DNA of 64,000 bases, taken from Siphonodentalium dalli. Lineage: Eukaryota; Mollusca; Scaphopoda; Gadilida; Siphonodentaliidae. Positions within the stretch are counted from its first letter, which is position 1, and the number at the start of each line of letters is the position of its first letter. Location: positions 254,831,582 through 254,895,581 of the forward strand of contig CP136061.1 in the NCBI GenBank assembly GCA_032622095.1. Direction: 5' to 3'. This document shows, piece by piece, positions 41,623 through 64,000 of the stretch. A model generated the notes under the pieces. It was not told the origin of the DNA, did not search any database, and saw only the letters and a program-made list of their open reading frames with translations. Made by a program: the position numbers and the translations under genes.

Positions 41623-41628
41623 TTTAGC
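41623..41628. repeat. Left target-site duplication TTTAGC
   Basis: TTTAGC directly precedes the AG that starts the inverted terminal repeat. The same six bases directly follow the right terminus (60904-60909). Six base pairs is the duplication size expected for Polinton integration. Confidence 0.9.
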
Positions 41629-42572: not shown

Positions 42573-42636
42573 ACTATTTTTTATTTTAGTTTTGAACATC
42601 ATTCAGTAAACTGCAAAAAAGGCTATTGTTATAAAT

Positions 42637-43017: not shown

Positions 43018-44132
43018 CAGAACAACACGATAAAAAGAATTTTTTGGAGAGTTATTACTATGATGTTGAAAAACCAGCATCATTCTCTGGTTTAGATAAA
43101 CTCTATCAAGTATTGAAAGGAAACGGACAATATTCATACAGCAGATCATACCTTGCCAAGTGGTTACAAAAACAAGATCCACATACTTTACATGGACAAG
43201 TGAAAAGAAAGTTCAAAACACTTAAAATGATTGTTTCGGGAGTTGACGATTTGTGGGAAATGGATTTATTATCTGTGCAAAACCTTAAAAAATCTAACAA
43301 TGGTATACAATATCTCCTTGTTGTAATTGATGTGTTTTCTAAATTCCTGTTTGTGCGGCCAATAAAGCGTAAAACCGCACAAAATGTCAATGAAGCACTA
43401 AAGGATATACTGGTAGTAACAAAACGAACGCCCAAGCATGTCAGATCAGATGCTGGTCTAGAATTCAGCAACAGACTGGTTAAATCTCTCTTTTCTCATT
43501 ATAATATTCACTACTACCCCACCTCAAACGAAATGCATGCATCAGTAGCTGAGAGAGTCAATAAAACTCTCAAGAAAATATTATTCCAATATTTTGACAA
43601 ATACAGGACTTATAAATATGTGGATATTCTGCAAAAGTTAATCAAAGGTTATAATCACACCCCCCACAGATCATTGAATTATATATCACCTAGCCAAGTC
43701 AACAAAAACAATGAATCAAGTATATGGGCGTTCCAATATCTACACACTAATACTATATATAAAACAAAGGTGCGTTTCAAATTAAAAATTGGAGACCTTG
43801 TCCGGGTGTCATTCTTGAAAAATAAATTCCGCAGATCATATCAACAACAGTGGTCTACTGAAGTGTTTAAAGTTAAAACAAGATTCACAAAACAAGCACT
43901 ACCACTCTATAAACTTGAAGATCTTGCGGGGGAGAGGGTCAAAGGTTGGTGGTATCAAGATGAGATAAAATTGGTTATAAAGAGTGAAAAATCATTGTGG
44001 TTGGTTGAGAAGATTATAAAAACCAGAAGGAGGAATGGTCGAAAAGAATATTTAGTCAAATACGAAGGGTTTCCAGATAAATTCAATGAGTGGCGACAAA
44101 GCCTTGATATAAAAACTATTACAAAAAAATGA
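43014..44132 (+). CDS. INT: Polinton integrase with C-terminal chromodomain
   Basis: Retroviral-type DDE integrase of 372 residues. The catalytic acids visible are D84 (WEMDLL), D146 (RSDAGLEF) and E180 (SVAERVNKT). The N-terminal part (FLESYYYD, then SGLDKLY and WLQKQDPHTLH) matches the conserved N-terminal region of metazoan Maverick integrases. After a basic SH3-like middle region, residues about 325-365 form a chromodomain: LVEKIIK, a basic loop, EYLVKYEGF, then FNEW. The chromodomain would read histone methylation and steer insertion, while the catalytic core joins element ends to chromosomal DNA with a 6 bp stagger, matching the observed TTTAGC. It overlaps both neighbours by ATGA. Length is normal and no key residue is missing. 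Confidence 0.95.
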   Translation: MTEQHDKKNFLESYYYDVEKPASFSGLDKLYQVLKGNGQYSYSRSYLAKWLQKQDPHTLHGQVKRKFKTLKMIVSGVDDLWEMDLLSVQNLKKSNNGIQYLLVVIDVFSKFLFVRPIKRKTAQNVNEALKDILVVTKRTPKHVRSDAGLEFSNRLVKSLFSHYNIHYYPTSNEMHASVAERVNKTLKKILFQYFDKYRTYKYVDILQKLIKGYNHTPHRSLNYISPSQVNKNNESSIWAFQYLHTNTIYKTKVRFKLKIGDLVRVSFLKNKFRRSYQQQWSTEVFKVKTRFTKQALPLYKLEDLAGERVKGWWYQDEIKLVIKSEKSLWLVEKIIKTRRRNGRKEYLVKYEGFPDKFNEWRQSLDIKTITKK

Positions 44133-44563
44133 CGGATAGATATGTTTACTGCAGCAGCAATGGTTTCGAAGATTACTTCCCGGAAAACACATCTTATCAA
44201 TTCAGAGTTCGGATGAACAAAACACTACAGCTTAGTGTGGATTGGTCACTCGGACTTATTGCATTTGCATATTTATCAACTGATACAGATTTGTCAGCCA
44301 AATTAGCAAAGAGCCTTCTCATCCATGTTTCATTAATAGAAAGTTCAATTTTTAATGGTGTTGAGAGACCAATATTAAGACGAATAGATCCGGTTATATA
44401 TGAAACATATTGGACTGCTGGTGGAGGCTATGTACCATATGTTCCGATTCGCACAGAAGTGGTTTCTGAGTTTGAGATCAATATAACGGATGATAATCTC
44501 CAACCTGCTTTATTCATTACGGATCCTGTGTCTGTTGTGCTTCATTTTAAACCACCGCTGTAA
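44129..44563 (+). CDS. Probable minor capsid (penton-like) protein, 144 residues
   Basis: The N-terminus has a Ser-Asn then Tyr-Phe-Pro-x-Asn-Thr pattern (SNGFEDYFPENTSYQFRV) followed by a Leu-x-x-Asp-Trp-Ser-Leu-Gly-Leu strand. This resembles the start of single jelly-roll minor capsid proteins of animal Mavericks, which read SN...YFP.NT...F...L then W.V.L. The C-terminus ends in a Val-rich strand before FKPPL. It is shorter than some relatives. It overlaps the integrase stop by ATGA (44129-44132) and is two bases from the next start, so it belongs to the virion-protein block. Role inferred: pentameric vertex of an icosahedral capsid. Confidence 0.7.
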   Translation: MTDRYVYCSSNGFEDYFPENTSYQFRVRMNKTLQLSVDWSLGLIAFAYLSTDTDLSAKLAKSLLIHVSLIESSIFNGVERPILRRIDPVIYETYWTAGGGYVPYVPIRTEVVSEFEINITDDNLQPALFITDPVSVVLHFKPPL

Positions 44564-44565
44564 TT

Positions 44566-44886
44566 ATGAATACCTCAATCTATATTCCAGACGCCAAAAA
44601 ATGGCTGGAATATATAACCAGTACCAACAAAGCTGTCAATCAGTCTCAAGCTACGGTGCCGCCAATAACGGTTGTGTCAACAAATCAAGAAGTTGTCAAT
44701 CGTGTCAAAGACGAACTTGCGAGAGAGGCATCCAAATATCAAACTGACACTGGGAAACATAAAAAAAAGGTGTGCAGACGAAAAAGACGTACAAAACAAA
44801 CACGAAGACCTGAATATAAGAAACAAACACACAAGAAACAGTCAACTGTGAGAAAAAAACGTGTCAGAGATATATTTTCGGATTAA
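44566..44886 (+). CDS. Basic core-like protein, 106 residues
   Basis: Residues 1-60 are mixed polar with the start IYIPDAKKWLEYI. The rest, from about residue 63, is extremely rich in Lys and Arg (KKKVCRRKRRTK) and ends RKKRVRDIFSD. A short basic protein with a final R-D-I-F motif between the minor and major capsid genes is a recurring feature of animal Mavericks as I know them. Its composition suggests condensation of DNA inside the particle, like adenovirus core proteins, but there is no sequence homology I can show. Two bases separate it from each neighbour's coding region. Confidence 0.7.
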   Translation: MNTSIYIPDAKKWLEYITSTNKAVNQSQATVPPITVVSTNQEVVNRVKDELAREASKYQTDTGKHKKKVCRRKRRTKQTRRPEYKKQTHKKQSTVRKKRVRDIFSD

Positions 44887-44888
44887 TT

Positions 44889-46214
44889 ATGGCGATGATA
44901 AACAAAGATCTATTCCAGGAGGGAATGCCAGAAGAGTTGTCATTGTTTGGTGTACCTGCAACGCAAACCGCAGTTGAACAATTATATTATCAAGAAGTTA
45001 GACCGATTTCGCAGGTTGTGCAAAATTCTCCGATTGATTTCAACGTGTGCTCACAGAATTCTTTAGATTATATTGATCTGCACAACACTAAACTGTATAT
45101 CAAACTTAATCTTACCAAAACAGGTTCAGCCAAAATACCATCCACAGAAAAGATTGGGCCTGTTAACCTATTTCTTCAGTCCTTATGGTCTCAAATTGAT
45201 GTTTCGTTCAACTCCAACACTATTACTCCGACAAACACAAATTATGCGTACAGTGCAATGATGCAGACTCTGTTGTATGGCAATCAGGCTGCTGCGGACA
45301 CATATTTGCAAACACAAATGTTTTACAAAGACACAGCCGGAGAAATGGATAATGCTGAGTTGAGAGGTGGAAACCTAGGATTCTATGAGCGATCAAAGCT
45401 CACACAATCCGGAAACACAGTTGAACTGACAGGCTGTTTATTTAATGATTTGTTCAGAATGAAAAAATATCTACTTAATGGAATAAATGTTCAACTAAGA
45501 CTGTATAGAAACAAAAGTAGTTTCTGTTTGATGTCAAAGGAAATTAATCCCGACTATAATGTCAAAATACAAGATATTGTACTGCATGTGGCTCGAGTTC
45601 GTTTGAACCCTGCATTGTTGTATGCACACGCAGAACTCTTAAAAAGTGCAAATGCCAAATATCTTTTTAAACGTAGTGATGTCAAAACAAATTCAATATC
45701 AACCGGTTTAACCCGGTTTACTTGGGATAATTTATTTCAAGCAAACCGGCCGCTTAAAGTTGCTATAGGATTAGTTTCATCTGATGCAGTATCGGGGGAT
45801 TACAAGTTAAATCCCTACAATTTCAAACATTCAAATGTTACTAAGGTGGCCCTTTTTGCAGATGGTCAACCTGTAGATTCAAGTCCACTGAATCTCAATT
45901 TCACAGCGACCACTGCGAAAAATGGTTATATTCCTGCTTATACAAATTTTTTGAAGAACACAGGCAACTGGATGAAAAACAAAGGCAGTTTGATAGAACC
46001 TTCAGACTATTCAAATGGCTACTGTTTATATGTGTTTGATTTAGAACCATATATGGATCGAAATAAATTTATTCCTCTACTGAAAACATCTAATATAAGA
46101 CTAGATATTCAGTTTTCTTCGCCATTAACTGAAACAACCTCATGTATTGTATATGCTGAATTTTCGGGATACTTTGAGGTGACTCAAAACCGAGATATTA
46201 TACACACACAGTAG
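44889..46214 (+). CDS. MCP: Major capsid protein (hexon-like, F54H12.2-type), 441 residues
   Basis: A soluble beta-rich protein without signal peptide. It matches the widespread F54H12.2-like protein of metazoan Mavericks/adintoviruses: an N-terminal LFGVP...T motif, FNVCSQNSLDYIDL near residue 53, the FLQSLWSQIDVSFN segment near residue 96, and a C-terminal Tyr-Ala-Glu-Phe then Gly-Tyr-Phe-Glu-Val strand. In this class the protein is regarded as the double jelly-roll major capsid protein that builds the icosahedral shell. The gene sits directly after the basic core-like gene and directly before the packaging ATPase, the normal virion-module order. The reading frame is uninterrupted and of usual length, so a capsid subunit could still be made. 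Confidence 0.85.
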   Translation: MAMINKDLFQEGMPEELSLFGVPATQTAVEQLYYQEVRPISQVVQNSPIDFNVCSQNSLDYIDLHNTKLYIKLNLTKTGSAKIPSTEKIGPVNLFLQSLWSQIDVSFNSNTITPTNTNYAYSAMMQTLLYGNQAAADTYLQTQMFYKDTAGEMDNAELRGGNLGFYERSKLTQSGNTVELTGCLFNDLFRMKKYLLNGINVQLRLYRNKSSFCLMSKEINPDYNVKIQDIVLHVARVRLNPALLYAHAELLKSANAKYLFKRSDVKTNSISTGLTRFTWDNLFQANRPLKVAIGLVSSDAVSGDYKLNPYNFKHSNVTKVALFADGQPVDSSPLNLNFTATTAKNGYIPAYTNFLKNTGNWMKNKGSLIEPSDYSNGYCLYVFDLEPYMDRNKFIPLLKTSNIRLDIQFSSPLTETTSCIVYAEFSGYFEVTQNRDIIHTQ

Positions 46215-46221
46215 CAACACA

Positions 46222-46884
46222 ATGCAAACCTATATTGATGAAAACTCCTTGAAGTTTCAATCACCAACAAATATTGCTGTTGTGGGATGTACCAGTAGTG
46301 GAAAAACATTCCTCGTCAAAAGGATATTAGAGAATTCAAAAACTATGTTCTCTCAACCTGTGCAAGCAACCTACCTGTGTTATAATACTTGGCAGCCTCT
46401 ATACGAGACACTGTCAAAGAATATTGTTTTCTATAAAGGAATACCTTCTAATGAGACAATAGACAAATGGTTGCAACAAACTGAAGGTCACAAATTATTA
46501 ATTCTAGATGATCTGATGTCACAGGTTTGCAACAATCTTGATGTGTTGAATTTATTTACAGTCAAATGTCATCATTGTAATGTATCTAATATATTTATTT
46601 CACAGAACTTGTTTGCTCAAGGCCGATCTATGAGAACAATTTCCCTTAATACACATTACTTTCTTTTGTTTGAGAATCGCAGGTGTGTGCAGCAGGTACT
46701 CTCATTGGCCAGACAGGCATTTCCTGATAAATATAATTTTTTTCTCGATGCATATTATTCTGCAACTAAATCTCGTTATGGGTATATATTACTTGACTTT
46801 CATCCAAAGTCAGACAGACGTTTGCAATTGAGAAGCAAAATATTTCCATCTGAAAACGCTATTATTTACGCGTCAAAGGAATGA
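46222..46884 (+). CDS. ATP: Genome-packaging ATPase (A32 / FtsK-HerA type), 220 residues
   Basis: Walker A GCTSSGKT at residues 22-29 and Walker B LLILDD at 92-97, followed by the ISQNLF motif (126-131) that carries the sensor Gln-Asn typical of the Polinton/poxvirus A32 packaging ATPases. It would pump element DNA into the preformed capsid. It starts seven bases after the capsid stop, and its own stop overlaps the next start (ATGA at 46881-46884). All key residues are present and the length is normal for the family. Confidence 0.92.
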   Translation: MQTYIDENSLKFQSPTNIAVVGCTSSGKTFLVKRILENSKTMFSQPVQATYLCYNTWQPLYETLSKNIVFYKGIPSNETIDKWLQQTEGHKLLILDDLMSQVCNNLDVLNLFTVKCHHCNVSNIFISQNLFAQGRSMRTISLNTHYFLLFENRRCVQQVLSLARQAFPDKYNFFLDAYYSATKSRYGYILLDFHPKSDRRLQLRSKIFPSENAIIYASKE

Positions 46885-47201
46885 AGATTGGAAAATATTT
46901 CAACTTCCTCACTTCATTGCTGAGAAGTAAAGTGGATCACAGAAAACTTATTCTACAAAGTTCACCAAAAGATGCTATCAAATTTCTGGCAGAATGTGTA
47001 CTCAATATTATTCGTGGAAATATTTCTGTATCACGTGACAGTGAACGAAAATTATATAAATACAGAGCAATCTTAAGAGAAATTGTTCAAAAGAATGTGC
47101 CTTTGACAGTGCGCAGACAAAAACTAACTCAAGTTATACATCTGTTGACAATAGTGATCAGAGCTGTTTTACGCTTATTTACAGAATGTCAAGGAAATTG
47201 A
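46881..47201 (+). CDS. Helical Maverick protein of unknown function, 106 residues
   Basis: An all-helical, Leu/Ile/Arg-rich protein. It has the layout R-K-L-I-L then A-x-x-x-L-A-E-C-V-L-N-I-I-R-G-N, a short Ser/Arg linker, and a second helix ending R-R-Q-K-L-T-Q. This matches the small helical frame that usually follows the ATPase in animal Mavericks. Those relatives often end in a Gly-Gly-containing helix, which is replaced here by a hydrophobic segment (VIHLLTIVIRAVLRLF). Function unknown; a virion or membrane-associated role is possible. It overlaps the ATPase by ATGA and overlaps the next frame by 16 bases. Confidence 0.65.
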   Translation: MKIGKYFNFLTSLLRSKVDHRKLILQSSPKDAIKFLAECVLNIIRGNISVSRDSERKLYKYRAILREIVQKNVPLTVRRQKLTQVIHLLTIVIRAVLRLFTECQGN

Positions 47202-47515
47202 TACTTATTCCGGAAGAAGAACATGTTAGTATGTGTCAAAAGCTGAACAATGATAAACAAAGTGTTGATATTTCTATGTCACAAATAGAAAAGAGTGACT
47301 ACTACAAACAAAACTGTCAGCCGGTTTGTTCAGAAACTATATCCAATGAGTGTACCAAAGACAGCAAATCACAAATAGAAAACAGTGACTACTACAAACA
47401 AAACTGTCAGCCAGATTGTTCAGAGGCTATATCCAATGAGTGTATCAAAGACTGCAAACCAACTGCCAAAATATCCAAAATAAAAAAACAAAAAATCAAA
47501 TGGCTCACTTTGTGA
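47186..47515 (+). CDS. Short Cys-containing protein with internal duplication, 109 residues
   Basis: It begins MSRKLILIPEEEH, resembling the start of a longer Maverick structural protein (K-x-x-L-I-P-E-E motif). The rest is a 30-residue tandem duplication: two units each read SQIE(K/N)SDYYKQNCQP and then (V/D)CSE, the second starting near residue 62. It ends in a Lys-rich tail. Duplication and short length suggest a shortened or remodelled version of the usual gene. It is the last gene of the compact left block and overlaps its upstream neighbour by 16 bases. Function unknown. Confidence 0.55.
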   Translation: MSRKLILIPEEEHVSMCQKLNNDKQSVDISMSQIEKSDYYKQNCQPVCSETISNECTKDSKSQIENSDYYKQNCQPDCSEAISNECIKDCKPTAKISKIKKQKIKWLTL

Positions 47516-47980
47516 ATGTATTGATGGTATGCAAACTACTATTTATATATACATATAACACATACATATATATATCTATATATTCTTTCCCTTTTTTTGT
47601 AAATATTTATATGTAGTTACTTTTCGTTTGTTTGTATTAAACTGTTTTGTAAATAGATTCATGTTTAGTTCAACAAATTCCCAATGATATTTATATCAAA
47701 CAAAAATCAGGGGGGTTGTTACAAACAATATTTGCATAAATGTTTATATATATTTAATGTTGGTATATGCAAATTAGCAGCTGTTAACTTACTGAGCTGT
47801 GCCACTCTTATACAAGCTGAAGTTTGCTATATATTGATATTGTCTATGTAAACAATATTTGTGTCTGTTGGGTATATTTTAGCTTATAGTTACACCAAAT
47901 GGTTCACTATATATTTATTCTGAATAAGCACAAAGACTGCTTGATAACTATCACAGGATTATTTTTGTGTAAACCACGTT
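47516..47980. other. Non-coding gap before the polymerase gene
   Basis: AT-rich, with TATATATA tracts and no coding frame. It probably holds the 3' end of the left gene block and the promoter of the polymerase gene; I cannot pick a single TATA box with confidence. Confidence 0.5.
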
Positions 47981-50900
47981 ATGCAGAACCAAGAGGCACA
48001 AAATGTTTCAACTCCCAGATTTGATTGTGACAAATGTAATAGAACTTATGCAAATCATAGCTCGTTGAGGAAACACAAGATTATGCATGATGAGGATTAT
48101 ATATGTGATTTGTGCAACAAAGAGTTTAAGACAAATGAAACTTTGAGTAGACATCTCAGGAATATTCACAAAAGAGAGCCAAGAAAAAGGCAGAAAGTTG
48201 AATCGATTCAGAGCTCAAATAGAACAACAACACAAACGCCAAAAGTTGAAACGATTCAGAGCTCAAATAGAACAATACAACCACCAAATATCATTAATCA
48301 AGTTATTAATGATAGTATATCAGCAGAGGGACAATCGAATGACTCTAGTGACAGTGAACTGGAAAATGAAACTTCAGCGTTGAATAAGATTGTGACTGTG
48401 GTGAAAATTAAACCAGCAAACAGGCCGGAAACAGATGATATGATTGTGTTTTTCGCTAACAACAGAAAAAAGATTTTGACCATTCTGGAGGAAAAAATGC
48501 AGCGATATAATGGAATGAAATGGCATCTCAGTCTGTGCATTTCAATGTTCAAGCCAAGCGATGAGCAGGGTGGAGAGGATAGTGTTATAGAGACACACTT
48601 TCGAACGCAACTATTCAAGTGTGTGACCAGTGATCAATTGGACATTGCCGATATTAATACTGGGTTTCACAAAATGTTCGAATCATTCAACACCTTTATA
48701 CATAGGGGCAGTGGTTGGAGAATAAGGAGAATACAGCATTTGGATATCAGTATGGCAATGTATAAACCTTTGTCAGCCAGCAGCTATATAGCAACGCCAA
48801 GCGAGCTAACTCATTCACGATCGATAATCAATGTAGTAAACAATGATGAATACTGCTTCGTGTGGGCTGTTTTGGCTAGTGTGCACCGAAAAATGAACAA
48901 TCCGAACCGTGTGAGCACTTATTTGCCATACAAAGACAGCCTTCGGTTGAACGGATTGACTTTTCCAATGAAAATAGAAGATATCACAAAGTTTGAGCGG
49001 ATGAACAATATATCTGTGAGCGTATTTGGCTATGAGGACAAACAGGTGTTCCCTTTAAGGATAACTAATATATATCCTCCAAACGAGCCTCATGCAGACC
49101 TGCTATTGTTTCACAATGAAGATAAAACACATTATACATGTATAAAAGATTTGGATAGACTCTTAACAAGATTCAAAAGGCAAACATCACACAAGAACTA
49201 TTTTTTCTGTAGATTTTGTCTGTGTTCATTTCGAACTTGGACGGACAGGGATGCACATATGCAGGAGTGTCAAGCTTTCGGCTTTCAAAAAACCTGTTAT
49301 CCTGCAGAAAAGGATAAAATTGTGCGATTCAATGAATACAACAAAAAATTTGTAATCCCATTCTGCATCTATGCTGACCTGGAAACGACTGTTGAGCAAA
49401 TTAGCAAATGCGACCCAAACCCTGACATTTCCTCCAGCACACCATATGCAAATCTCAATCCACTCAGTTTTGGAATCAAACGTGTTTGCAAGGTGGATGA
49501 GACCTATACAAAACCTACATTTATCTATAGCTCAGACACTGGTGTTATAGACTATTTTCTAGAAAAACTATTTGAGGAGGTTGAGGAAATTGAAAGTATT
49601 TTAGAGGAAACAGCTGATATGATCATCACGGAAAAGCAGCAGCTGGACTTTGAAGCAGCAACGGAATGTTATAATTGCAATAGAAAGTTTAACGAAAACA
49701 GAAGGAAATGCCGCCACCACTGCCATGTCAGCGGGCTCTACAACGGACCCAGTTGCGATGGCTGTAATTTGCATCTCAAAGCGCCTTTATTTATTCCCGT
49801 GATTATGCACAATCTTCGTGGATTTGATTCGCATCTTATATGTCAAGCTATGGGAAAGTTCGGCGAACCTATTACATGTATACCCAATAATATGGAAAAA
49901 TATCTGTCTTTCAGTATAGGAAAATTACGCTTTATCGACTCTTATCAATTTTTGAACGCATCGCTGGAGACGCTGGTAGAAAACTTGAAAGACTTTGACA
50001 ACTATAATTTTCCTTATCTAAATGATGAGGGATTCACACCTGAACAATGCAATTTGCTCAAGAGGAAAGGTGTATACTTCTATGAGTATGTCACATCAGT
50101 AAATGTGTTTGGTGAAACGAAACTTCCGGAAAAGGACAAATTTTACAACAAAATGACAGAAAGTAATATTACTGATTCAGAATATCAACATGCCCACAAT
50201 GTTTGGACCAAATTCAATATGAAAAATCTGGGCGACTACCATGATCTTTATTTAAAAAGTGATGTCTGTTTGTTAGCCTGTGTATTTGAACAGTTTCGAG
50301 ATATCTGCTATCAGTACTATGGTCTGGATACCCACCATTTCTATTCTGCTCCAGGTTATAGTTGGAGTGCAATGCTCTTAAAAACTGATGCCGAATTTGA
50401 GCTTATAACTGATCCTGATCAGTACATTTTCTTCGAAAAGGGAATAAGAGGCGGAATTTCCTGCATAACACAGCGATTTGCAGAGGCCAATAATAAATAT
50501 ATAGGCGAAAGTTATGATACAACACAAGAAACATCCTATGTCGCATCATACGATGCTAATAATTTATACGGGTGGAGTCAATGTCAACCAATGCCATATC
50601 GCTCATTTCAATTCTTGACTCAAGAGGAAATAAGCAATTTGGACATCAGTTCAATAGCTTTTGATGACAAACATGGATATGTGCTAGAAGTTGATCTAGA
50701 GTACCCAGAACATCTACATGATACGCACAACTGCTATCCACTGGCTGTTGAGCGACGCCGTTGTGACTTTGATGAAATTTCGCAATATAGTCAGCAGCTA
50801 TGGCGTTTGCATAATGGAGATGCCAAATTCCATACCACAGAAAAACTAGTGTTAACATTATATGATAAACAACATTATATTATTCACTACAAAAATCTGC

Positions 50901-51826
50901 AACAGTGTCTGGAGTTGGGACTCAAGTTGAAAAAAATTCACAGAGTGTTACGTTTTGAACAAAAACGTATTCTCAAACCATATATCGACTTTAACACACA
51001 AAAGCGAGCCGAAGCTAAAAATGCCACTGAAAAATTTATATTCAAACTCTTGAATGTGTCGATATATGGAAAGGCTCTCGAAAATGTTCGAGGAAGGGTG
51101 AATATTTCATTAATAAATAATGAACACAAATTGAGAAAATATATATCAAAACCATCATTCAAACGTTTTGAGATTTTTAATAATGACTTGGTTGGAGTTG
51201 AATGCAGCAAAGTGAAACTCGTTTTGAACAAACCAGTCTATCTCGGATTCGCAATTCTGGAATTATCAAAGTATTTGATGTATGATTTTCACTACAACTA
51301 TATTAAAAAACTGTATGGTGAGAATGCAAAATTATTATTCACCGACACAGACTCTTTGACCTATCATGTGAAGTGTGAGGATATTTATAATGATATGTTA
51401 CAAAACAAAGAACTGTTTGACACCAGCAACTATGATAAAGACCACTTTTTATACAGCAGTGACAACAAGGCCCAAGTTGGGTTAATGAAAGATGAATCTT
51501 ATGGTATACCAATAAAGAGCTTTTGTGGACTTCGCTCTAAAGTATATGCATATTGCTATGGCGATACTGAGAAAAGAAGAGCGAAGGGAATTGTTAGAGG
51601 TGATCAAAAACTGAAATTTGTTGACTATTACAATTGTTTGTTTGGAAATACAGACAAGACAATGTGTAGGTTCAACAGAATTTTGAGCAAGAAACACCAA
51701 CTTTTTTGCACACATATAAATAAACGCGCCCTGAGTGCATTTGATGACAAGCGATATATTGCAGATAATGGCATCACCACACTCAGCTTTGGCCATTATG
51801 CTATTCAGTATAATACCCAAAGTTAG
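47981..51826 (+). CDS. POLB: Protein-primed-type DNA polymerase B, 1281 residues
   Basis: Family B polymerase of the Polinton type. From the N-terminus: two C2H2 zinc fingers (C16, C19, H32, H36; C42, C45, H58, H63); a duplicated low-complexity linker (IQSSNRT twice, near 73-95); an OTU/papain-like region with C292 (YCFVWAVL) and H384 (HYTCIKDL); a third Cys-His finger near 408-430; 3'-5' exonuclease motifs with D466/E468 (DLET), D616 (LRGFDSH) and D761 (LKSDV). A Cys/His cluster resembling an endonuclease VII zinc motif sits near 562-598. Polymerase motifs are D858 (DANNLYG), LNVSIYG (1025-1030) and D1122-T-D1124. It would copy the linear element from its ends, presumably with a protein primer. 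It is uninterrupted, and all catalytic acids I looked for are present. Confidence 0.95.
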   Translation: MQNQEAQNVSTPRFDCDKCNRTYANHSSLRKHKIMHDEDYICDLCNKEFKTNETLSRHLRNIHKREPRKRQKVESIQSSNRTTTQTPKVETIQSSNRTIQPPNIINQVINDSISAEGQSNDSSDSELENETSALNKIVTVVKIKPANRPETDDMIVFFANNRKKILTILEEKMQRYNGMKWHLSLCISMFKPSDEQGGEDSVIETHFRTQLFKCVTSDQLDIADINTGFHKMFESFNTFIHRGSGWRIRRIQHLDISMAMYKPLSASSYIATPSELTHSRSIINVVNNDEYCFVWAVLASVHRKMNNPNRVSTYLPYKDSLRLNGLTFPMKIEDITKFERMNNISVSVFGYEDKQVFPLRITNIYPPNEPHADLLLFHNEDKTHYTCIKDLDRLLTRFKRQTSHKNYFFCRFCLCSFRTWTDRDAHMQECQAFGFQKTCYPAEKDKIVRFNEYNKKFVIPFCIYADLETTVEQISKCDPNPDISSSTPYANLNPLSFGIKRVCKVDETYTKPTFIYSSDTGVIDYFLEKLFEEVEEIESILEETADMIITEKQQLDFEAATECYNCNRKFNENRRKCRHHCHVSGLYNGPSCDGCNLHLKAPLFIPVIMHNLRGFDSHLICQAMGKFGEPITCIPNNMEKYLSFSIGKLRFIDSYQFLNASLETLVENLKDFDNYNFPYLNDEGFTPEQCNLLKRKGVYFYEYVTSVNVFGETKLPEKDKFYNKMTESNITDSEYQHAHNVWTKFNMKNLGDYHDLYLKSDVCLLACVFEQFRDICYQYYGLDTHHFYSAPGYSWSAMLLKTDAEFELITDPDQYIFFEKGIRGGISCITQRFAEANNKYIGESYDTTQETSYVASYDANNLYGWSQCQPMPYRSFQFLTQEEISNLDISSIAFDDKHGYVLEVDLEYPEHLHDTHNCYPLAVERRRCDFDEISQYSQQLWRLHNGDAKFHTTEKLVLTLYDKQHYIIHYKNLQQCLELGLKLKKIHRVLRFEQKRILKPYIDFNTQKRAEAKNATEKFIFKLLNVSIYGKALENVRGRVNISLINNEHKLRKYISKPSFKRFEIFNNDLVGVECSKVKLVLNKPVYLGFAILELSKYLMYDFHYNYIKKLYGENAKLLFTDTDSLTYHVKCEDIYNDMLQNKELFDTSNYDKDHFLYSSDNKAQVGLMKDESYGIPIKSFCGLRSKVYAYCYGDTEKRRAKGIVRGDQKLKFVDYYNCLFGNTDKTMCRFNRILSKKHQLFCTHINKRALSAFDDKRYIADNGITTLSFGHYAIQYNTQS

Positions 51827-52095
51827 TGGAAGTGAATTATTAATATTAGAGGCCTTTGGTTTCAAATTCTGCACACTTAGTCATCCACATGCACACAGCG
51901 CACTGTAAACTTCATCATTGATCTATATAGTTTGTGGAGGAAAAATATTAATTTGCAAACAATATGTATTATATTGTATTCTAATATACGCAACCACCTT
52001 TATCAGTGAACTGATGTCATTCCTTGCATATATAGGTCAATAGTCATATATTATATGTTGAACAGATATTGAAATATACTGAAAATAAAGGGAGA

Positions 52096-52339
52096 CTGTA
52101 CCTAAAACCGGCTATTTATCTTAGGGAGGCTCATATCTTGCTATATGGTGTTTGAAATTGATCAACTAAGCACATTGGTGCATACTTTGTTTTCATTCCC
52201 GACTCAAATTGAATATATATTGATTCAATTTGAGTCAGGAATGAAAACAAAGTACATCAATGTGCTTAGTTGCTAAATTTCGTTCACCATATAGTAAGAA
52301 ATGTGTCTCCCTAAGATGAATATCTGGATTTAGTTACAG
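52096..52339. repeat. Foldback hairpin inside the Polinton
   Basis: Ends CTGTACCTAAAACC / GGATTTAGTTACAG. Arms pair through AAGCACATTGGTGCATACTTTG and its inverse, with the centre at ATTGAATATATATTGATTCAAT. About 244 bp, non-coding. Confidence 0.8.
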
Positions 52340-53532
52340 TGGGCCCTTTTAACAGCAGTTATACAAATATATATATAAAATATATAAAAATATATAAATA
52401 AAGAGCAAAACATTTGTACTAGAGCTGTACTTTATACTGATTAAATATGTCCTGACTGATATAACGCTTAGTTGAAAAGACTAAAATTTAGCAAAATCTC
52501 TTTATTAACCAAGACTTGTTTCTTTCTTTTTTTTTTTGTGAACAATACCATGCACGGTTTATAAGTCACTTTTTTTTATTTCTTTCTTTTTTTTTTGTTG
52601 CAATTTTCTGAAACAAAATTGAGACTATATTACAACTTGACATATTGTTTAAATTTTTTTTTTTTTTTTAATTTTTTTTTTTTTGCGGTTTGCAGTTTGA
52701 TAGTAATAAATCAGTCAGGATATCTTTAACCACAACACGTCTGTATATCCATATGAGGTAGACTGATAAATTTGAAAAGAAAACAGTTATTAGCTGTTCC
52801 AACCTACAAATAAATAAATAGGAATAAAGTAGTTAACATCGTTCCATTTATAAAAAAATGGGTTATATATCACAATTCAAGTGACTAAAACAAGAAATAC
52901 AAACAACATTATTTACAGTGATTGATCAACAAAGTTGAACAAACTATAGTGCATATTTACATGAGGTAGACTGACAAACATCTCAAAATGCTGTTAAATA
53001 TCTCTTAGATTCCTAGTTATTCGATTGTATGACTGTGAATAGACAAAAGGAGTGCTAAATTTGTAGGGAGTTCATATTGCTAAGAGAACAGTTTTTTTTT
53101 TTATTATTTTAACTGTTCAAACCTACAAATGGACTATATATCACAATCCAAATGGCTGTTTTAGTTAAACTATGTCAGGTGCAACAGCATACAAACACCT
53201 ATTTTCCAACACCAAATATTAAGTTTGGTTTCTGACTACATTTTAAGAAATCTGACTTAGAAGCCTATTTGTTTGTGCACTCAATTTGCTGAGTTCAGAA
53301 TAATAAGAACATCAAGTTTTCAACTATTATCTGTTTAATCCCACAGATGAATAAATAGGAATAAAGAAGATAATAGTGTCAACCCAGTTGTAAGAGGACT
53401 TACATATCAAATGTCAAATGTCAGATTTCGAGTGAACAAATGTATAGTATAATGACTGCTAACGTATGTGCAGAATATACATGTTTGCAAAAAATATTGT
53501 GCGTTTTGGGATTCGCAAAATAATTTCCTCAT

Positions 53533-53741
53533 CAAGCCTTGAAATAGGGTGTCCGTCATTTGCAGAATGAGGTCCATAGAGGGCGAATTTAGTGATACTA
53601 CCCCGTATAGCAAGCTAGCATCACCAAATTCACTCTCTGGGAAACCTCATTCTACTGAGACATAGTGGGCTAGCATCACCAAATTCACCCTCTGATAAAC
53701 ATCATTCTGCAAATGACAGACATCCTATTTCAAGGATTGTT
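53533..53741. repeat. Imperfect hairpin inside the Polinton
   Basis: Left arm TTGAAATAGGGTGTCCGTCA and right arm ending GACATCCTATTTCAA pair. The CTAGCATCACCAAATTCAC word is duplicated on the right side. Confidence 0.75.
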
Positions 53742-54710
53742 CCTCATACTCTGAATGTATATAAATATCAGTGAACAGTTCATAATAGATGAGGAATAAT
53801 GGTCAATTCTGATCAGTCAAATTGAGAGTTTGCCATAATTATTTAACAATATGTTTAAACACTGTGTTCCCTTTGTAGAACGTAAATTTATAAAAATGTT
53901 TATAAAAAATAAACGTAACTAGTAAACAAACAAAAATAAAAGAAAAACAAATCAACAGTATTTACAGTGTTTGTTCATATATATTTTGCAAATTGTGTCG
54001 CTAGTATTTTTCATTTGTTTTGAAATTAAGGTACCTTTAAGAACAAAATGTGCTTTGTCACCAATGTACACAGAAATATTGTTGCTATTTCACATGAAAG
54101 TAATACCACCAAAGAAAATTAAGGCACCTTTAAGCACAAAATGTGCTTTGTAACCAAGGTATACAGAAATATTGTTGCTATTTGACATGAAAGTAATAAC
54201 ACCTAAGATTGTGTTTGGTTTGACAGACAAACTCCTTGTAAATAAATATGCCTTCATATATTTGTGTTAAACATAAAATAAATCAATATTCGGCTGGTAA
54301 TGAACTGTTGTTTTCCTTGATTAAATATTAAAAGTCCTATCAATTCCATGCCATAGTATTACAATATGTTTTATTGGACACTTATTGTGAGTTTAAGTAG
54401 ACAATATACCAGCAACCAGGTGTGAAATATAACCAGAAACCTTCTAACAATAGACATGTTGTAGGTGATTTGACACATTTAACCCTTTCATTATACCAAC
54501 ATTGATGGTGCAGCATTAGCAATACTGTGTCAATGCATTCTCCTATATATATATGTATCTTCCAGTGAGATATGCCCAATATATAAGAAAATATATTGGC
54601 ACAGAATTTCCAAAAAAAACAAAACAAAAAAAAATTAGACAGTTCAGTGAAATACAGAAGTTTACTGTTTGTAAAGAACTGCAATATTACTGTTTGTAAA
54701 CTACAAGATT

Positions 54711-55097
54711 TAAAGGTGTTCAATCCTATATTACTATTTGTTTGGCTTTGAGGGGGTAAAAAATATTTGATTTGAGTCGAGGAACCTACCAATTAACACT
54801 CAGGGTGAACAGCTATGGATATTTGAATTTTCATTAATTCTATTTTTTCTGTCCCAGAACACAGACAAATTTGCGTTATTATTACCACTTGATTTTAGAG
54901 TTACCCATCCTTGTCTGTTTGAATAGTGTTTTGGTGTTCACATTTCGAGCAAATTACGAAGGTAAGGTTTCATCTCGAGAAAATAACAAATTTAAAAAAA
55001 ACAATATCTAATGACTGCAAGCTTTGTTTGATAGGTTCCTCAACTCAAATCAAATATTTTTTACCCTCAAAGCCAAATAAATAGTAATATAGGACCC
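54711..55097. repeat. Foldback inside the Polinton, ATATTACTATTTGTTTGGC arms
   Basis: 54723-54790 and 55033-55096 are inverted copies (TTTGGCTTTGAGGG and its inverse CCCTCAAAGCCAAA). They flank about 240 bp of unique sequence. A separate inverted pair lies at 55249-55292 / 55358-55402 (TGTACCATTCGG words). Confidence 0.75.
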
Positions 55098-55875
55098 ACT
55101 GTTCGGTTTGTTGATGTTGGAGTCTGTTGAGATGGGGAACCCTCTGATCGGATTGAATACCTTTAATAAGTTATTAGTTTGGTGAAATAAAAAGTTGTTA
55201 ATAAAGCTGAAAAGACTCATTCTCGCCAATAAAAAAGTGCTGAAAGGGAAATCAGGTTTTGAAAATGTACCGAATGGTACACATGGGGGTTGAAAACTCA
55301 TTCTAAATCACTTTTAGTTTTCATGTCTGACTACATACATACGTTAGTGCTGATCACAAACCCCTGTGTACCATTCGGCACATTTTCAAAACCTGGAATA
55401 CCTTCAGCACTTGTGTTAGAAAAAAAAATAAAAAATTTGTACAGTCTGACACACAAAAGATTTCTAACAGCTGAATAGCCCTAAATAAGTTAATCTATAA
55501 TCGCACTGACCAAAAATATTCTATATAGATTAACACTAGGATTTCAAATATGAACTAAACAAGTTGTTCACCTCCTACTAGTATCTTAACATCATTCCTT
55601 TGGAGTTACTGTTTTAGTATTTTGTTTTTTTTAATATAGCTAAATGGGGGTTAAGCCATATACTAAAATAGTTGGTATTGCCAAGTTTCACACCCCATTT
55701 GTCAGTCATAATTTTGCGTGTGCTCTTACTGTTTGTTTTTTTTTATTAACACAGAGTTTTATAGTTATAGTCTGTTTAGGCACTAAGACAAAAGCAAAAT
55801 ATGCGAATTACTGTTTGCGTAGGTACAAAGACCATGGACATGTTAGGACACAACATGAATTTATGATAGACCTGT

Positions 55876-55882
55876 TATAAAA
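55876..55882 (+). promoter_or_regulatory. TATA box of the spliced PC4-like gene
   Basis: TATAAAA lies about 30 bases before an initiator-like TCATTCAGTT (about 55908-55917). It places the transcription start after the ATG at 55889 and so selects the ATG at 55931 as the first codon. Confidence 0.6.
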
Positions 55883-55930
55883 GCCCATATGGTATTCCAT
55901 TTACTAGTCATTCAGTTTTCAACTTCAAAT

Positions 55931-58413
55931 ATGGCGGATAATATTGCACCAGCAACAACTGAGTCATACGAGAAAAAGTTTGATCACTTTGCACTCAAGA
56001 TCACTTTGTTTCGAGGAAAACCCTATTTGCACATATTTAACAATGATCCTGACCTTGTTCAGGAAGAGGAGCCTTATATTTCTTTGAACTTAAAGGAAGC
56101 CGAAAAGCTGGAAAGGCAGAGAAGTGATTTGGAAAAAAACATGACAAAGGTGAATATCATGCCAATCACCAGTGTCTATAGGGCATTGGTGAACAGCGCC
56201 AGAGCATTTAAAGTTGTCAAAATATACAATGACAAAGGAAAAGTGAAAGTAAATCTGCAGCAGGAGGTGACAAAACCCGGGGAAACACCGCGATATGGGA
56301 AAGTGGCGTTCGACAAGGACTCGTTCCTAGTATTCCAGCGGATTCCATTTCTAATGAAAATGAAATCGATGATTCCATCAGAACAGGAAACTATTAAAAA
56401 CGTAAGTAAACAATATTTTTTTTTTTTGCAACACTATAGTCAAAGCATATTTCCTAAACAGTAGAGAAAATTATATTGCTGTGAAATCTCAAGTGTTAAT
56501 TTATAGTGAATATTTAAAATTTGGCATATACCAGACCCAATTAATTTGTTTTTAACTCAAGATCGATAGTATGTTAGTCTGTTAGGCTGCTGTCTTAACC
56601 TTGTTGATCTCCTGAGTTTGGGCTGTTGATTTACTGCTGGATGAATTAGTCTATATAGAAAGTCAACAGCGCGTATAAACCACTGATAGTTTTGAATAAA
56701 TATCCTGAATCTTCTCAACGCAGCGATAAATAGACACAGAACAATGCCTGCAAATAAGTGAAAAAATAAATTAGGTCTGGTATATGATGGAAATTGACAA
56801 TAGCAAACAGGTTCAGTTCACAGGTATATTCAGGCTGAATATTAATCATTTTTTATTGTTGATCCGACTCTATTGGTTGGAACTTGAAACATGGTCACAC
56901 TTTCATCGTCCAACATTTTTGTTACATTGTATCGATTCCGTTTCCTCTTGATGCACCATATCAATAGGACGATTACAGCAGCACACACTGCTATGATAGC
57001 ACATATCAAGATTATCCACTTTCCTGAAGATTAAATATTGAGAGTTAGCTTGCACGAAAAAGAAATAAGATTACAACAGCTGTGTATAATTGGCAAATTT
57101 AGATACTTTTAATATAGTTATAATTTAGAATATGCCAATATCATAAACATCTACTTTGATTACATACCTTGAAGAATATACTTTTCAACAAATGAAAAAG
57201 CCAGGGCACAAAATAAATATAAAAACAAACAAAAACTGACATTTCCTTATGCAGTAATGCCCTAATTAATCACCTGCATAGCCACATCAGAATTATAGTT
57301 GACATTTTAAGGATTTAGTGGAAAAAATGGATGGTTGCCATTCTCTTTTGAGCTTTCTGATAAATGTCAACAAACCATATTTCCGACTAAACCTGAAAAC
57401 GCTAACCGTAGTTCTGCTGTGGTTATGGAGTTGATTAATTAGGACATTACTGTACATGAACAAGTGATATAGTAGTTCATATAAATGTACCTTGAAGAGC
57501 ATTTGCAGCATCTGGCATAAAGGCATCAGTTGAGTTTGGGTTACTGATAAAGCTGGTGCCTGGTATTGATGACCTTGGTTTGTGTGTGGTTGTACGCTTT
57601 GTGTCACTATATGTCTTGACAGTTGACATCATATTATAATCTGGGCCAGTTTCCACTGCTGACAGTTGCTACAAAATAATAGCATAAATAATAATATGAA
57701 TAGTAAATTAAAAGTATATAAATTTATTTGCAGGAAATGAAAGCAGTATCAAAACAGTTGAGAGAAGGGGCAATTGATATTTTAGAATTGGAGAGCACCA
57801 ACTTAAAAGTATCCCACAAAAGGAAAAAGATGACACTAGAGGCAGGATGTCCAAAAAAAGCAAAGAGAGATACAGCAGAAGCAGGAAGCTCAAAAGATGT
57901 CATGAACTTTGACTGCTTCATTGTTGATGAGGCTGCGGTTGACCAGTAAGTATACATTTTTTTTTTAAAGTAAAAACATTTTTTATAAATCAATTAGTAA
58001 TTATCCCACAAAAAAAAAAACAAAAACAAAAAAACAAAAACAAAACAGATTCATAATTATTGGTAAGACTCATATTTAATATTAGCACCCCATATGGGGG
58101 AAACAGGGCATGGTGTATTGACCATGGTAAACACACTATTATTTAAATAACTTATATTTTGTTGAAGTTTGTAATTGCTGTTTTTTATTTATTAATACTT
58201 TGTGTTGCTTCGATGTTTTATTTATTATACGATGGAATGCAGCAGGTGTATGAAACAAACAATACATGTGCTTAGTGACACACACACGCCTCTGTTGATA
58301 TTTACAATAAATACAATTTGCAATTTGTTTGAACATTCAGTGAGATATACGAGGACAGTGATGAACCAACCGACAATGGTGACACAACAGAGTTCAGTGA
58401 AGAGACTGAATAG
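55931..58413 (+). CDS. Spliced PC4-like, acidic-tailed protein (candidate ssDNA-binding), about 251 residues
   Basis: Three exons by splice signals: 55931-56401, 57734-57945 and 58341-58413 (stop TAG 58411-58413). Donors are GTAAGT at 56402 and 57946. Acceptors are TTTGCAG before 57734 and CATTCAG before 58341. Phases agree (0 then 2), and the summed exons are an exact multiple of three. Residues 20-65 contain KITLFRGKPYLHI followed by EEPYISLNLKEAEKL, a beta-strand then helix layout like the PC4 / p15 ssDNA-binding fold and like the small gene at 42315. Exon 2 has two basic clusters (SHKRKKM, PKKAKR) that could be nuclear signals. The last exon is strongly acidic, a feature of many ssDNA-binding proteins. 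Function is inferred. Exons 2-3 lie inside the first intron of the opposite-strand gene. Confidence 0.7.
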
Positions 58414-58954
58414 GACAGAGTTTAAAGGTAATGCAGTATATCATTTTCCCAGACAATAACTTGTTTAATTTTTGTCAGCAGGTCTGGGTGAAACAGCAAT
58501 TTAATCGTTCAGTCTATAAGGCCATTTGCACTACAATTATCTTTTTCACAATCTACACAACATGGTCTTAAAGTTTTATCTTAAATATGGCACAATATTA
58601 TTTGCGATGCAGGTGGAAACTTACCGAACAATAATCAGTATTGCCGTCAACAACGACATTCAAATCGCAAACAGGGCATATTGGTGTGCTGGCATCGTCG
58701 ATCGCCAGGGTGATAACAGACTCAAGAAATTTACAATCTTGAATGTCTAGTTTGTTCAGACCGATGAGTCTCAATTTGGTGATACTCCATTCGATGTTGC
58801 TGGTCACTACAACAGATTTGCCTGTTGCAAAACACACTATCTCGGTTGCGCCTGCGTCTGTGGTTCTGTGGCAGCTGGTCGAGTCGATGAGCTCGTTGAG
58901 CGTTATGGCTCCAACAGCCGCAATTGTCATAAAAAATGACAGCATGAAGAACAT
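56842..58954 (-). CDS. Spliced type I membrane protein, about 229 residues
   Basis: Three exons read leftward: 58954-58625, 57668-57491 and 57023-56842 (stop TAA). Donor GTAAGT follows exon 1 and GTACAT follows exon 2; acceptors are TTTTGTAG and ATCTTCAG. Phases agree (0, then 1), and the exons sum to 690 bases. Residues 1-16 are a signal peptide (MFFMLSFFMTIAAVGA). The ectodomain has six cysteines (28, 41, 74, 93, 96, 109) and a Leu-periodic stretch at 58-83 that recalls one or two leucine-rich repeats. Exon 2 is a Ser/Thr/Pro-rich stalk with one Asn-Ser-Thr glycosylation site (N155). Residues 172-194 are a transmembrane helix, followed by KRKRNR and a 30-residue tail. It is likely a surface protein of the element's virion or of the host cell membrane. 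No family match is claimed. The ATG at 58981 is an alternative start. Confidence 0.7.
57252..57452. mobile_element. Small TA-type MITE inside both introns
   Basis: Inverted ends TGCAGTAATGCCCTAATTAA and TTAATTAGGACATTACTGTA (about 25 bp), flanked by TA-like dinucleotides. It lies in intron 1 of the rightward gene and intron 2 of the leftward gene, so neither coding sequence is disturbed. It shares its CAGTAAT end with the element at 59832-60043. Confidence 0.7.
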
Positions 58955-59012
58955 TTTGGTAGTTATTGAACACTTCAGCATCAAAAAAATAAACAAAACC
59001 TGATCACGTGCG

Positions 59013-59018
59013 TTTATA
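59013..59018 (-). promoter_or_regulatory. TATA box and flanking CACGTG sites of the membrane-protein gene
   Basis: TATAAA on the minus strand lies about 30-60 bases before the two candidate ATGs (58981, 58954). Two CACGTG E-box palindromes flank it (about 59005 and 59033). Confidence 0.55.
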
Positions 59019-59040
59019 ATGTTGTTGATCTCACGTGACT

Positions 59041-60449
59041 GAAACCCCGCGAAAAAAAAATCGATTTCAACCTCGTCGCCAAAGTTAAAGTTTAGTATAT
59101 TGTGCGATTGCCGTTGTTTGTCGATATTACGTGGCTGGTAAATATACTTAAAGACAAATATTGGAATAAATAGTGGAAATAGGGCTGAAATATAAGAGGA
59201 GTGGTGTCAATAAATTTGTGATATATATTAGAGAGTTCTATACGCCAGCATTGCTAAATAAACTAGTTCTCTATTTGTATTCTATTTTTAGCTTGACTGG
59301 TACTGCGACTGTGGACACGTGAAGCTCACCCAGCGTCTTCTCCATAAAAGCTTACACAGCGTCATAAGAGCGGGGAAAACGTCACGATAAAAACGTAGAA
59401 GAACAACAACAGATTGTTGTTAATATTAGATATAATAAACTGATCAAACAACTATATTTTGTCTTAGTGATTTATAGATAATATACTGCATGGAAATAGA
59501 TCAAATTTATAGATATATTGTTTGTTTGTTTTTGTTTTGTTTTTGTTTTTAAATATTTAGAATATATGGGTTTAGTAATTTTGCATTATTTTATTGATAG
59601 CTTAGATAATGCATTGGTAATTAAAAAACAATTCTCTGAAAATAAAACAATAGTTAAAAAAAAAAAAAAAAAAAAAAAATCTGCATGCAAAATTTTCGCT
59701 GGTGACTACTTTTTGAATTTTTGATTGATAATATTAATCAAAACAAACAAAAACAAACAAACAATATATATGATCAAGTATGCTCATTTATAGAAGATAA
59801 AAGTATACAAAACAACCTGGGTGTTATATAATACCGTAAAACCCAAAGTAATTGCCCACTTAACAACAACAGAACCATAGGTAGTTTTTCAGGATTTAGT
59901 CCGAAATATGATTTGTTTCCATCCATATGAAAACCGAGAGCTTTCCGATGAATGGCAACAATCCATATTTTCGACTAAAACCTGAAAAATTACCAATAAA
60001 TCTGATGTGGTTAAGCGTACAATTACTTTTGGGGATTACTGTAGGAGCTTAGAATGCAGCTATTGGAAAATGATGAGTCCCACTATATACACATATGATA
60101 GATGCTCAAAACTGCATTTGAGAGTTTAGCGTACTCTGAGTGGCTTTGCCTCCATTCCCTTGTTTGTCCAGTTATAACGCAAGTGGTATGCCCTTCATAT
60201 ATTGTAGAACTCGCGCCCACCCAACTGAGCTGTCGGAAGTGTCGTTGACTGCCATTAACCAGCCTATACTAAAATGTTGATATACATTTAAAACTGTTAA
60301 GATAAAGTTGAGTTCTATGCCAAGATCATTCTAAATCTCACCTCGTTTGAACCGTTTACGTTTCGGCATTGACTGGAGACCTTCCCGTACTACGTATGCC
60401 TTTACTGCATACCTGCCCATTCGTTGACTGGAAGTGTTGCCATATTCGG
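59041..60449. other. Non-coding right arm of the Polinton, part 2
   Basis: No gene recognised. It contains a run of about 24 A near 59655-59680, the MITE at 59832-60043, and from about 60345 a degenerate extra copy of a terminal-repeat module (palindrome-like CGTATGCCTTTACTGCATACC and an ETS-like CTGGAAGT word). Confidence 0.5.
59832..60043. mobile_element. Small TA-type MITE, second copy of the CAGTAAT family
   Basis: Inverted ends TACCGTAAAACCCAAAGTAA and TTACTTTTGGGGATTACTGTA, flanked by TA. 212 bp, no coding capacity. The end sequence is typical of Tc1/mariner-derived MITEs. Confidence 0.75.
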
Positions 60450-60499
60450 CCGGAAGTGGGTGGATATCCCGATGGTGCTTTCGTACGTTGCCGATATAC

Positions 60500-60903
60500 A
60501 TAAACACAACAGTTCAGAGTAAACAGAGTAGCTCTGCATAGAGTTTGGCGGGTGACCGGCTTTCCCAAATCTCACGACAGACACTGTTCGCTGAACGAGT
60601 CCACCTCAAACGAATCGTTAACGGTTCGTTCGGTTTTGACTCTAGACCTGTCCGACCGGAAGTGCTGTCATAATCGACCAGAAGTGGGCGGGTTCGCTGA
60701 ACGAGTCCACCTCGATCGAATCGTTTACGATTCGGCTTTGACTGTAGACCTGCCCGTTCACCCCCCCCCCCGGAAGTGTTCACATAAACGACGGAAGCGG
60801 GTGGATGTGTCGTTGATACTGCCCTACGTTACCGGCATACCGGAAGTGACGTGTTGGAGTCGACCGGAAGTCGAGTGGGCAATCGCCCCATACGTATACT
60901 ACT
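60500..60903 (-). repeat. Right inverted terminal repeat of the Polinton
   Basis: Inverse of the left repeat. Exact CCGGAAGT words lie at 60656, 60770, 60840 and 60864, plus one at 60450 just inside. It holds an extra internal copy of the CGAATCGTTTACGATTCG palindrome module and a C(10) run near 60760-60770 not seen on the left. Confidence 0.9.
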
Positions 60904-60909
60904 TTTAGC
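60904..60909. repeat. Right target-site duplication TTTAGC
   Basis: Exact copy of 41623-41628, directly after the right terminus. Confidence 0.9.
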
Positions 60910-62330: not shown

Positions 62331-63239
62331 TAAATCTGCCATAACCGATATACTCCTTATTATTTTTTGTCAAATCCCCTGTCACGTCCTAATAACACAT
62401 ACATGCAAATTTTATGGAGCACATGCAACGAATCGTCAAAAATGAACGTGTATACATGTACTAAGTAAATATGCTTCACCATTTAACACAAACTGTTATC
62501 CGCACGTGGCAGGGGATAGGTATTATTCATGTCTGTCATGGCGACCAACATGTAGCATGTCCCCAGGCTACAATGAACGTTATCCCTTTCGTTACTAAAT
62601 GAATTCTCGCAGTCGGTTAAAAAGTGTACATCGGAATGGTCTATTATTGATTTGGAGGGATGTTGATGTGATAAAAGCAGGCGACAGATAAATAAAAGCG
62701 TAGAAGTAGCCCTATTTGTTGAGAGAAATGTTTAAATACTAAGTTAAACAAACGACCTATATACTAGTATATGGTCGTTTGTTGAACTTTTTATCTGTAT
62801 ATTTCCTATATAGGATAACTACTCATCAATGATGCTTTAGTATAGCAAGGGTTATGTGGACATCTACTGTGCCCACACAGTGTCACAAAACGGTGAACAC
62901 TACCCGTATATACGTACATGACCGTGTAGATAAACACGAAAGATGAGTAAGTACATGTATTACGATTCTGTTCCATCGTCATCGAATAAGAGTTTGACGT
63001 CATACGATATTCTCCTGGGGTCAAGTGACAACATATGCGCAGATACGAAGTTGCTCGCTTATTGGAGAAACGAAAGCATTTTAAAGTTTATCTATATGTA
63101 TAAAATACAATGACTGTCTATAACTCTCACAATTTCGCGCGTTTATAACAATTAATCCATATATTACGTCGGAGTGAAATCCAATCTGTACCACGTCCTA
63201 TGTTGTATACACATACCTTAGAAGACGACACAGTGGACA
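62331..63239. other. Gene-free stretch
   Basis: A short palindrome AAACGACCATATACTAGTATA-like lies near 62750-62785. No gene recognised. Confidence 0.4.
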
Positions 63240-64000
63240 CACCATATGTGATGATGATGATGTTGAAGATGATGACGCTGATGATGATGATGGTGAAGAT
63301 GATGACGCTGGTGATGGCAGTGATGATGATGATGATGCTGATGGTGATGATTATTGTGATTATGATGATGATGCTGATGATGATGATGCTGATGATGATG
63401 ATTATTGTGATTATGATGATGATGCTGATGATGATGATGCTGATGATGATGATGATGTTGAAGATGATGACACTGTTGATGGCAGTGATGATGATGATGA
63501 TGATGATGCTGATGGTGATGATTATTGTGATTATGATGATGATGCTGATGATGATGATGATGCTGATGATGATGATGATGATGCTGCTGGTGATGGTGAT
63601 GGTGATGATGGTGATGTTTATGATGGCGGTGATGATGATGCTGCTGCTGATGATGATGATGATGATGATGGTGAGGATGATAATGATGTTGAAGATGATG
63701 ACGCTGATGATAATACGATGTTGTCGAGGATGTTGATGATGGTGATGGTGGTGATGATTGTGATGATGATGATGATGATGGTGGTGATGTGATGATGACG
63801 ATGATGATGATGATGATGAGGACGATGGTGATAGTGATGATGATGATGATGGTGATGGTGGTGATGATTGTGATGATGATGATGATGATGATGATGGTGG
63901 TGATGTGATGATGATGATGATGATGATGAGGATGATAATCATGTTGAAGATGATGACGCTGATGATGATGATGATGGTGATGGCGATGCTTCTGATGATA
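63240..64000. repeat. GAT/ATG microsatellite and higher-order repeats, runs off the window
   Basis: Almost pure ATGATG/GATGATG with interspersed GTTGAAGATGATGACGCTG and GATTATTGTGATTATG blocks that recur as longer units. Open frames on both strands (poly-Met or poly-Ile/Ser/His) are artefacts of the triplet repeat. Confidence 0.95.

Follow-up and report, generated by a model that had tools for sequence, protein, structure and literature searches.

The stretch analysed here (the window: 64,000 nucleotides, positions 254,831,582 to 254,895,581 of contig CP136061.1 in the GenBank assembly GCA_032622095.1 of the scaphopod mollusc Siphonodentalium dalli; all coordinates below count from its first letter) contains a mobile element of the Polinton/Maverick type, complete at both ends. 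To the right of a polymerase-like open reading frame (ORF), this element carries two predicted genes of three exons each, one read rightward and called R, the other read leftward and called L, whose exons are the following:

55931-56401, plus strand: R exon 1, 157 codons, with a possible PC4/PUR-like DNA-binding domain in a low-confidence fold model
57734-57945, plus strand: R exon 2, with basic stretches read by eye as a possible nuclear localisation signal
58341-58413, plus strand: R exon 3, an acidic tail, 11 of 23 residues being D or E and none K or R, followed by the stop
58625-58954, minus strand: L exon 1, 110 codons, containing six cysteines and, at the N-terminus, a hydrophobic segment that is probably a signal peptide
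57491-57668, minus strand: L exon 2, rich in S/T/P (37%) and stalk-like, with one N-glycosylation sequon
56842-57023, minus strand: L exon 3, predicted transmembrane helix, basic stop-transfer, short tail and stop

Along the plus strand, these exons follow one another in the order R1, L3, L2, R2, R3 and L1, with no overlap between coding sequences; R exons 2 and 3 lie within L intron 1 and L exons 2 and 3 within R intron 1, so that the two genes are mutually nested. The exon lengths are 471, 212 and 73 nt for R, closed by an in-frame TAG at 58411-58413, and 330, 178 and 182 nt for L, which ends in frame at 56842, the predicted products having 251 and 229 amino acids, respectively. All four introns are predicted to be of the GT-AG type: both R donors read GTAAGT and the R acceptors end in TTTGCAG and ACATTCAG, while the L donors read GTAAGT and GTACAT and the L acceptors end in TTTTGTAG and ATCTTCAG, GTAAGT being thereby found in three of the four introns and GTACAT in the fourth. 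In terms of base composition, the six exons contain 37-45% GC, compared to 27-34% in the four gaps between them. The exon boundaries, the GT and AG ends, the phases and the mutual nesting had all been given by an original prediction made on this DNA, every coordinate of which proved right on recheck.

The coding signal of this block was evaluated with a small gene-finder combining a splice consensus with codon usage taken from five ORFs of the element that have no introns; the splice-site matrices, as well as the TATA, initiator and poly(A) motifs used below, follow consensus values instead of ones trained on the host. Run unanchored over 55900-59000, the gene-finder returned R1-R2-R3 exactly, with a score of 74.8, and, in the same scan, L1 (opened at an upstream in-frame ATG, 58981) joined to L2, with a score of 48.4 and a different last exon. 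In comparison, host DNA scanned 40 times in tiles of 3.1 kb reached a maximum of 34.5 (mean 25.5, standard deviation 3.8), values to be read with the knowledge that this DNA may hold real genes, that the scans are non-independent, most tiles overlapping by half or more, and that two tiles overlap the stretch that set the background codon table. Eight scans elsewhere in the element scored between 16.7 and 31.3 and revealed no other spliced gene comparable to R or L. When exon 1 and its donor were held fixed, none of 1,000 dinucleotide shuffles reached R and two of 1,000 reached the originally predicted model of L. At the level of individual exons, the codon scores of R1, R2 and R3 are each above those of all background stretches, drawn from the same DNA as the background codon table, and the fraction of these stretches reaching L2 and L1 is 0.0002 and 0.021, respectively. 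Codon usage thereby makes R strong and L1-L2 likely.

Several results nevertheless weigh against accepting the two models exactly as drawn. Once codon preference is removed, 539 of 1,000 shuffles equal the R model and 115 of 1,000 the L model, and neither is the best model found; in addition, L3 is without codon-usage support, being reached by 0.47 of the background stretches, and the gene-finder picks other last exons for L in its place. The agreement of sites and phases, on which the original argument against chance was founded, is thus not enough when taken alone. Codon usage and the membrane-anchor exon are what speak against chance, the latter with a helix of Kyte-Doolittle hydropathy 3.56 over 19 residues, and with no anchor exon like L3 in the spliced phase among 2,000 shuffles, according to criteria fixed after the exon had been seen.

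In this context, R could be real with its three exons while L would consist of exons 1 and 2 joined to a different last exon, 57048-56903 for instance, or would be a soluble protein encoded by exon 1 and its continuation into the intron, the nesting being then partial or different. Such a structure would agree with the last exons preferred by the gene-finder and with the missing codon signal of L3. However, the strong anchor and basic stop-transfer seen in the spliced phase of L3, unmatched in the shuffles, fit the signal-like start of exon 1, an AATAAA overlaps the end of L exon 3, and none of the ORFs used for training is a known membrane protein, for which reason an anchor exon may score low. 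We consider this alternative unlikely. Even less probable, in our opinion, is that only exon 1 of R and of L is real and that the downstream exons are chance open frames, which would leave two ordinary convergent intronless genes: although the splice and open-frame signal is ordinary when taken alone, as the shuffles without codon preference indicate, and although the integrase, capsid, ATPase and polymerase-like genes of the element are single ORFs, the codon usage of the element is present in R2, R3 and L2, no shuffle reaches R when codon preference is kept, and the host DNA stays well under the scores of R and L. The reading that we consider probable is that this animal Polinton has, in R and L, two genuine genes of three exons each, convergent and interleaved, with the protein roles and the order of expression proposed below. 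Within this reading, the anatomy, the element ends and the coding signal of R and of L1-L2 are demonstrated, the anchor exon, the positions of the poly(A) signals and the R promoter have support, and splicing as such, the functions of the proteins and the order of expression are inferred.

With regard to its product, R may be a nuclear DNA-binding protein, as suggested by its basic stretches and by a fold model in which the likeness to PC4/PUR is weak. The PC4/PUR-like fold has the order beta-beta-beta-beta-alpha. A search of R exon 1 against 5.8 billion proteins gave 11 candidates, none at E<=1, and no relative was found in IMG/VR or among phages. The Protein Data Bank (PDB) returned one unrelated chain (0.47) for the whole exon, and for its two halves nothing and that same unrelated chain (0.39), respectively; PHROGs gave weak families of unknown function (0.044), Pfam gave DUF5793 (0.042), and a viral fold library gave no useful match. 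An internal duplication within R exon 1 was also considered and is not supported, since 761 of 2,000 shuffles do as well.

Given the splicing model, L has the plan of a type I membrane protein by hydropathy and composition, with a signal, an ectodomain, one helix and a basic cytoplasmic side, and may be such a protein. Its exon 1 gave 38 candidates against the same 5.8 billion proteins, none at E<=1, no relative in IMG/VR, and weak families of unknown function in PHROGs (0.0045); its structure model has a pLDDT (predicted local distance difference test) of 48. In Pfam, L exon 3 retrieves families of the anchor type, all below cut-offs, the best being DUF3139 (5.6e-4). The possibility that L is a membrane fusion protein was set aside, L being short and no resemblance having been found.

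The signals that would start and end the two messages are located as follows:

55876-55917, plus strand: likely R core promoter, with TATAAAAG at 55876, 55 nt before the R ATG
59011-59018, minus strand: TATAAACG, a possible TATA box for L, located between two CACGTG and 64 nt ahead of the L ATG
56852-56857, minus strand: AATAAA, the predicted poly(A) signal of L, lying within its final codons
58988-58993, plus strand: first canonical AATAAA after the R stop, past all of L exon 1

In the likely R core promoter, the initiator-like sequences TCATTC (55908) and TCAGTT (55912) stand 32 and 36 nt after the TATA box; no initiator-like site was found downstream of the L TATA box. Since any 40 nt of this region would be expected to hold about 0.16 TATAWA, both TATA boxes are weak by themselves. 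Since the AATAAA of L overlaps its last codons, the 3' end of the L message is predicted near 56.83 kb, before R1 is reached. On the other side, the interval from the R stop at 58413 to L exon 1 at 58625 contains none of the 12 poly(A) hexamer variants sought, and two minor hexamers lie inside L exon 1 on the R strand (AAGAAA at 58724 and CATAAA at 58928). The mature R message would thereby be antisense to L exon 1, its 3' untranslated region (UTR) probably covering much or all of that exon, barring a further 3' intron or an unusual site. The original view that the two messages would pair only through introns is thus probably wrong.

The element that hosts these genes has the following parts:

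41629-60903, no strand: Polinton/Maverick-type element, 19,275 bp, both ends complete
42996-44132, plus strand: integrase ORF with chromodomain (Pfam rve 2.6e-11, Chromo 4.3e-07)
44889-46214, plus strand: major capsid protein ORF, 215 homologues at E<=0.01
46183-46884, plus strand: packaging ATPase ORF of the A32/FtsK type (Pfam Pox_A32 3e-07)
47948-51826, plus strand: probable family B polymerase, a single ORF of 1,292 amino acids, with motifs picked out by eye
57239-57465, no strand: imperfect inverted repeat resembling a miniature inverted-repeat transposable element (MITE), arms 73% complementary, in R intron 1 and L intron 2

The outer 24 nt are identical at both termini (reading inward, AGTAGTATACGTATGGGGCGATTG), the outermost 112 nt are 96% complementary, and a longer inverted similarity between 41629-41980 and 60532-60903 amounts to 76% over 384 columns; the element is flanked by two identical copies of a 6-bp target-site duplication, TTTAGC, at 41623-41628 and 60904-60909. 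By its inverted termini, this duplication, the rve integrase, the capsid and the Pox_A32-type ATPase, the element belongs to the Polinton/Maverick group, and the original proposal of a Polinton with two spliced, mutually nested genes is supported. Finally, the interleaved block could have functioned once and survive only as a relic in one dead copy, its layout having no present regulatory meaning. This would agree with the MITE-like repeat in the shared intron, with termini that beyond their first 112 nt are only 76% similar, and with the examination of one copy. Against it stand the perfect match of the outermost 24 nt and of the two copies of the target duplication, the intact reading frames of the six exons and of the integrase, capsid, ATPase and polymerase-like genes, and the position of the inverted repeat outside the exons; we consider it very improbable.

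Regarding the capsid, the assignment to a gene of the Polinton kind is made by homology. Two of the 120 homologues listed among the 215 bear capsid names (P0046 and P0060). The animals named in the best 32 of these 120 are the bivalves Pinctada, Tegillarca, Mytilus and Argopecten (41-47% identity), the remaining named rows being bacterial metagenome-assembled genomes (MAGs), and echinoderms and corals come next; judged by these capsid matches alone, the host would probably be placed in or near the bivalves. A contig search with a capsid alignment (31 of the 120 listed homologues and the window's own sequence) led to one locus, L001. Its Polinton-like contig, CALIZB010000033.1, is catalogued as part of a Bacteroidia MAG and terminates within the L001 polymerase, which matches Pfam DNA_pol_B_2. 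This locus also encodes, at 1192-1695, a TATA-binding-protein homologue (Pfam TBP 1.2e-27) adjoining an integrase-like ORF. The 1,292-residue ORF of the element is a probable family B polymerase by motifs of such enzymes recognised by eye; it gave no significant match among Pfam polymerase families, the PDB and phage records, and its DTDS aligned with the polymerase of L001 without significance. Polymerase and capsid scans of IMG/VR confirmed nothing. No adenain-type maturation protease was recognised among the ORFs scanned; that of the element may be divergent or missing.

Elsewhere in the element, the ORF at 47060-47515 contains two near-identical stretches of about 30 residues (Pfam PRP38 4.9e-05, just above cut-off) and is possibly a translated tandem repeat. 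The 4 kb at 51830-55900 are without a good gene model; several inverted repeats, all of them imperfect, occur there together with a 93-bp tandem pair. Sequence related to the 57239-57465 repeat is present at 59842-60032, and no Rfam family reached gathering scores in 51.8-61 kb. In the rest of the window, a very long 45-bp tandem satellite (27111-36576, 203 register copies) leaves the minus strand open for hundreds of codons, and a long GAT/ATG-type microsatellite (63149-63938) gives ORFs made mostly of D, M or S/H.

If R and L are the two interleaved genes favoured above, their working could be the following. R would give a nuclear, probably single-strand DNA-binding protein from its TATA and initiator promoter, and L a small type I membrane protein, with a signal peptide and a cysteine-rich domain from exon 1, a stalk from exon 2, and an anchor and tail from exon 3. 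Free simultaneous transcription of both from one template would be impossible, as the polymerases would collide, and the R message would run antisense over L exon 1 towards the AATAAA next to the L start site, so that one gene would probably be dominant at a time, with R suppressing L (asymmetric exclusion). The simplest form of this would be an early R and a late or conditional L. Retention of L intron 1 is predicted to give a soluble rather than an anchored L. More tentatively, the interleaving may be a built-in switch, in which crossing units and the antisense R 3' UTR would make the early DNA-binding R and the membrane L mutually exclusive, and template occupancy would select a replicating, nuclear state or a surface-exposing one; we regard this extension as possible but doubtful.

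Adenovirus maps place exons of either strand inside introns of the opposite one. According to PMC7851563 and PMC9499273, both adenoviral strands are transcribed and spliced from units overlapping on opposite strands, the reverse one bearing E2A (DBP, the single-stranded DNA-binding protein) and UXP, whose promoter is within the L5 coding sequence, and the forward one bearing E3, whose products modulate the host immune response, and the late units. R and L are predicted to share this opposite-strand, overlapping and spliced organization, but whereas adenoviral introns rarely interrupt coding sequence (PMC7851563), all four predicted introns of R and L do so. Besides, neither R nor L was found to be homologous to a named adenoviral protein, save for an insignificant anchor match (Hum_adeno_E3A, 0.12). 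PMC11071296 uses PolB and hexon to define adintoviruses and describes an rve integrase that carries a chromodomain; the element resembles Polintons and adintoviruses in its chromodomain integrase, capsid, Pox_A32-type ATPase, polymerase-like ORF, inverted termini and 6-bp duplication. In line with the original prediction, which knew of no such Polinton locus, no description of opposite-strand, mutually interleaved, intron-split coding genes was found for a Polinton in the open-access literature: the passages available from PMC12220804 speak of group I introns, and in those from PMC6431247, which link Polintons to adenoviruses, the word intron occurs only in a reference. Genes within introns are common in animals, PMC8527503 reporting 2,357 of them for one ctenophore, distributed over 1,654 host genes, but R and L differ from these in that each has exons in the other's intron, within a 3-kb stretch of a mobile element. 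The layout itself would thus resemble a known adenoviral one, in a group linked to Polintons, and what appears new is its occurrence in a Polinton with split coding sequences.

Polinton genes are usually annotated as plain ORFs. If the split and interleaved coding genes are real, the element would rely on nuclear splicing, like adenoviruses, ORF-based annotation of Polinton right arms may miss genes, and the locus would offer a concrete, RNA-testable instance of two genes mutually excluded by layout. Should the switch hold as well, an adenovirus-like layout would be at work inside a Polinton.
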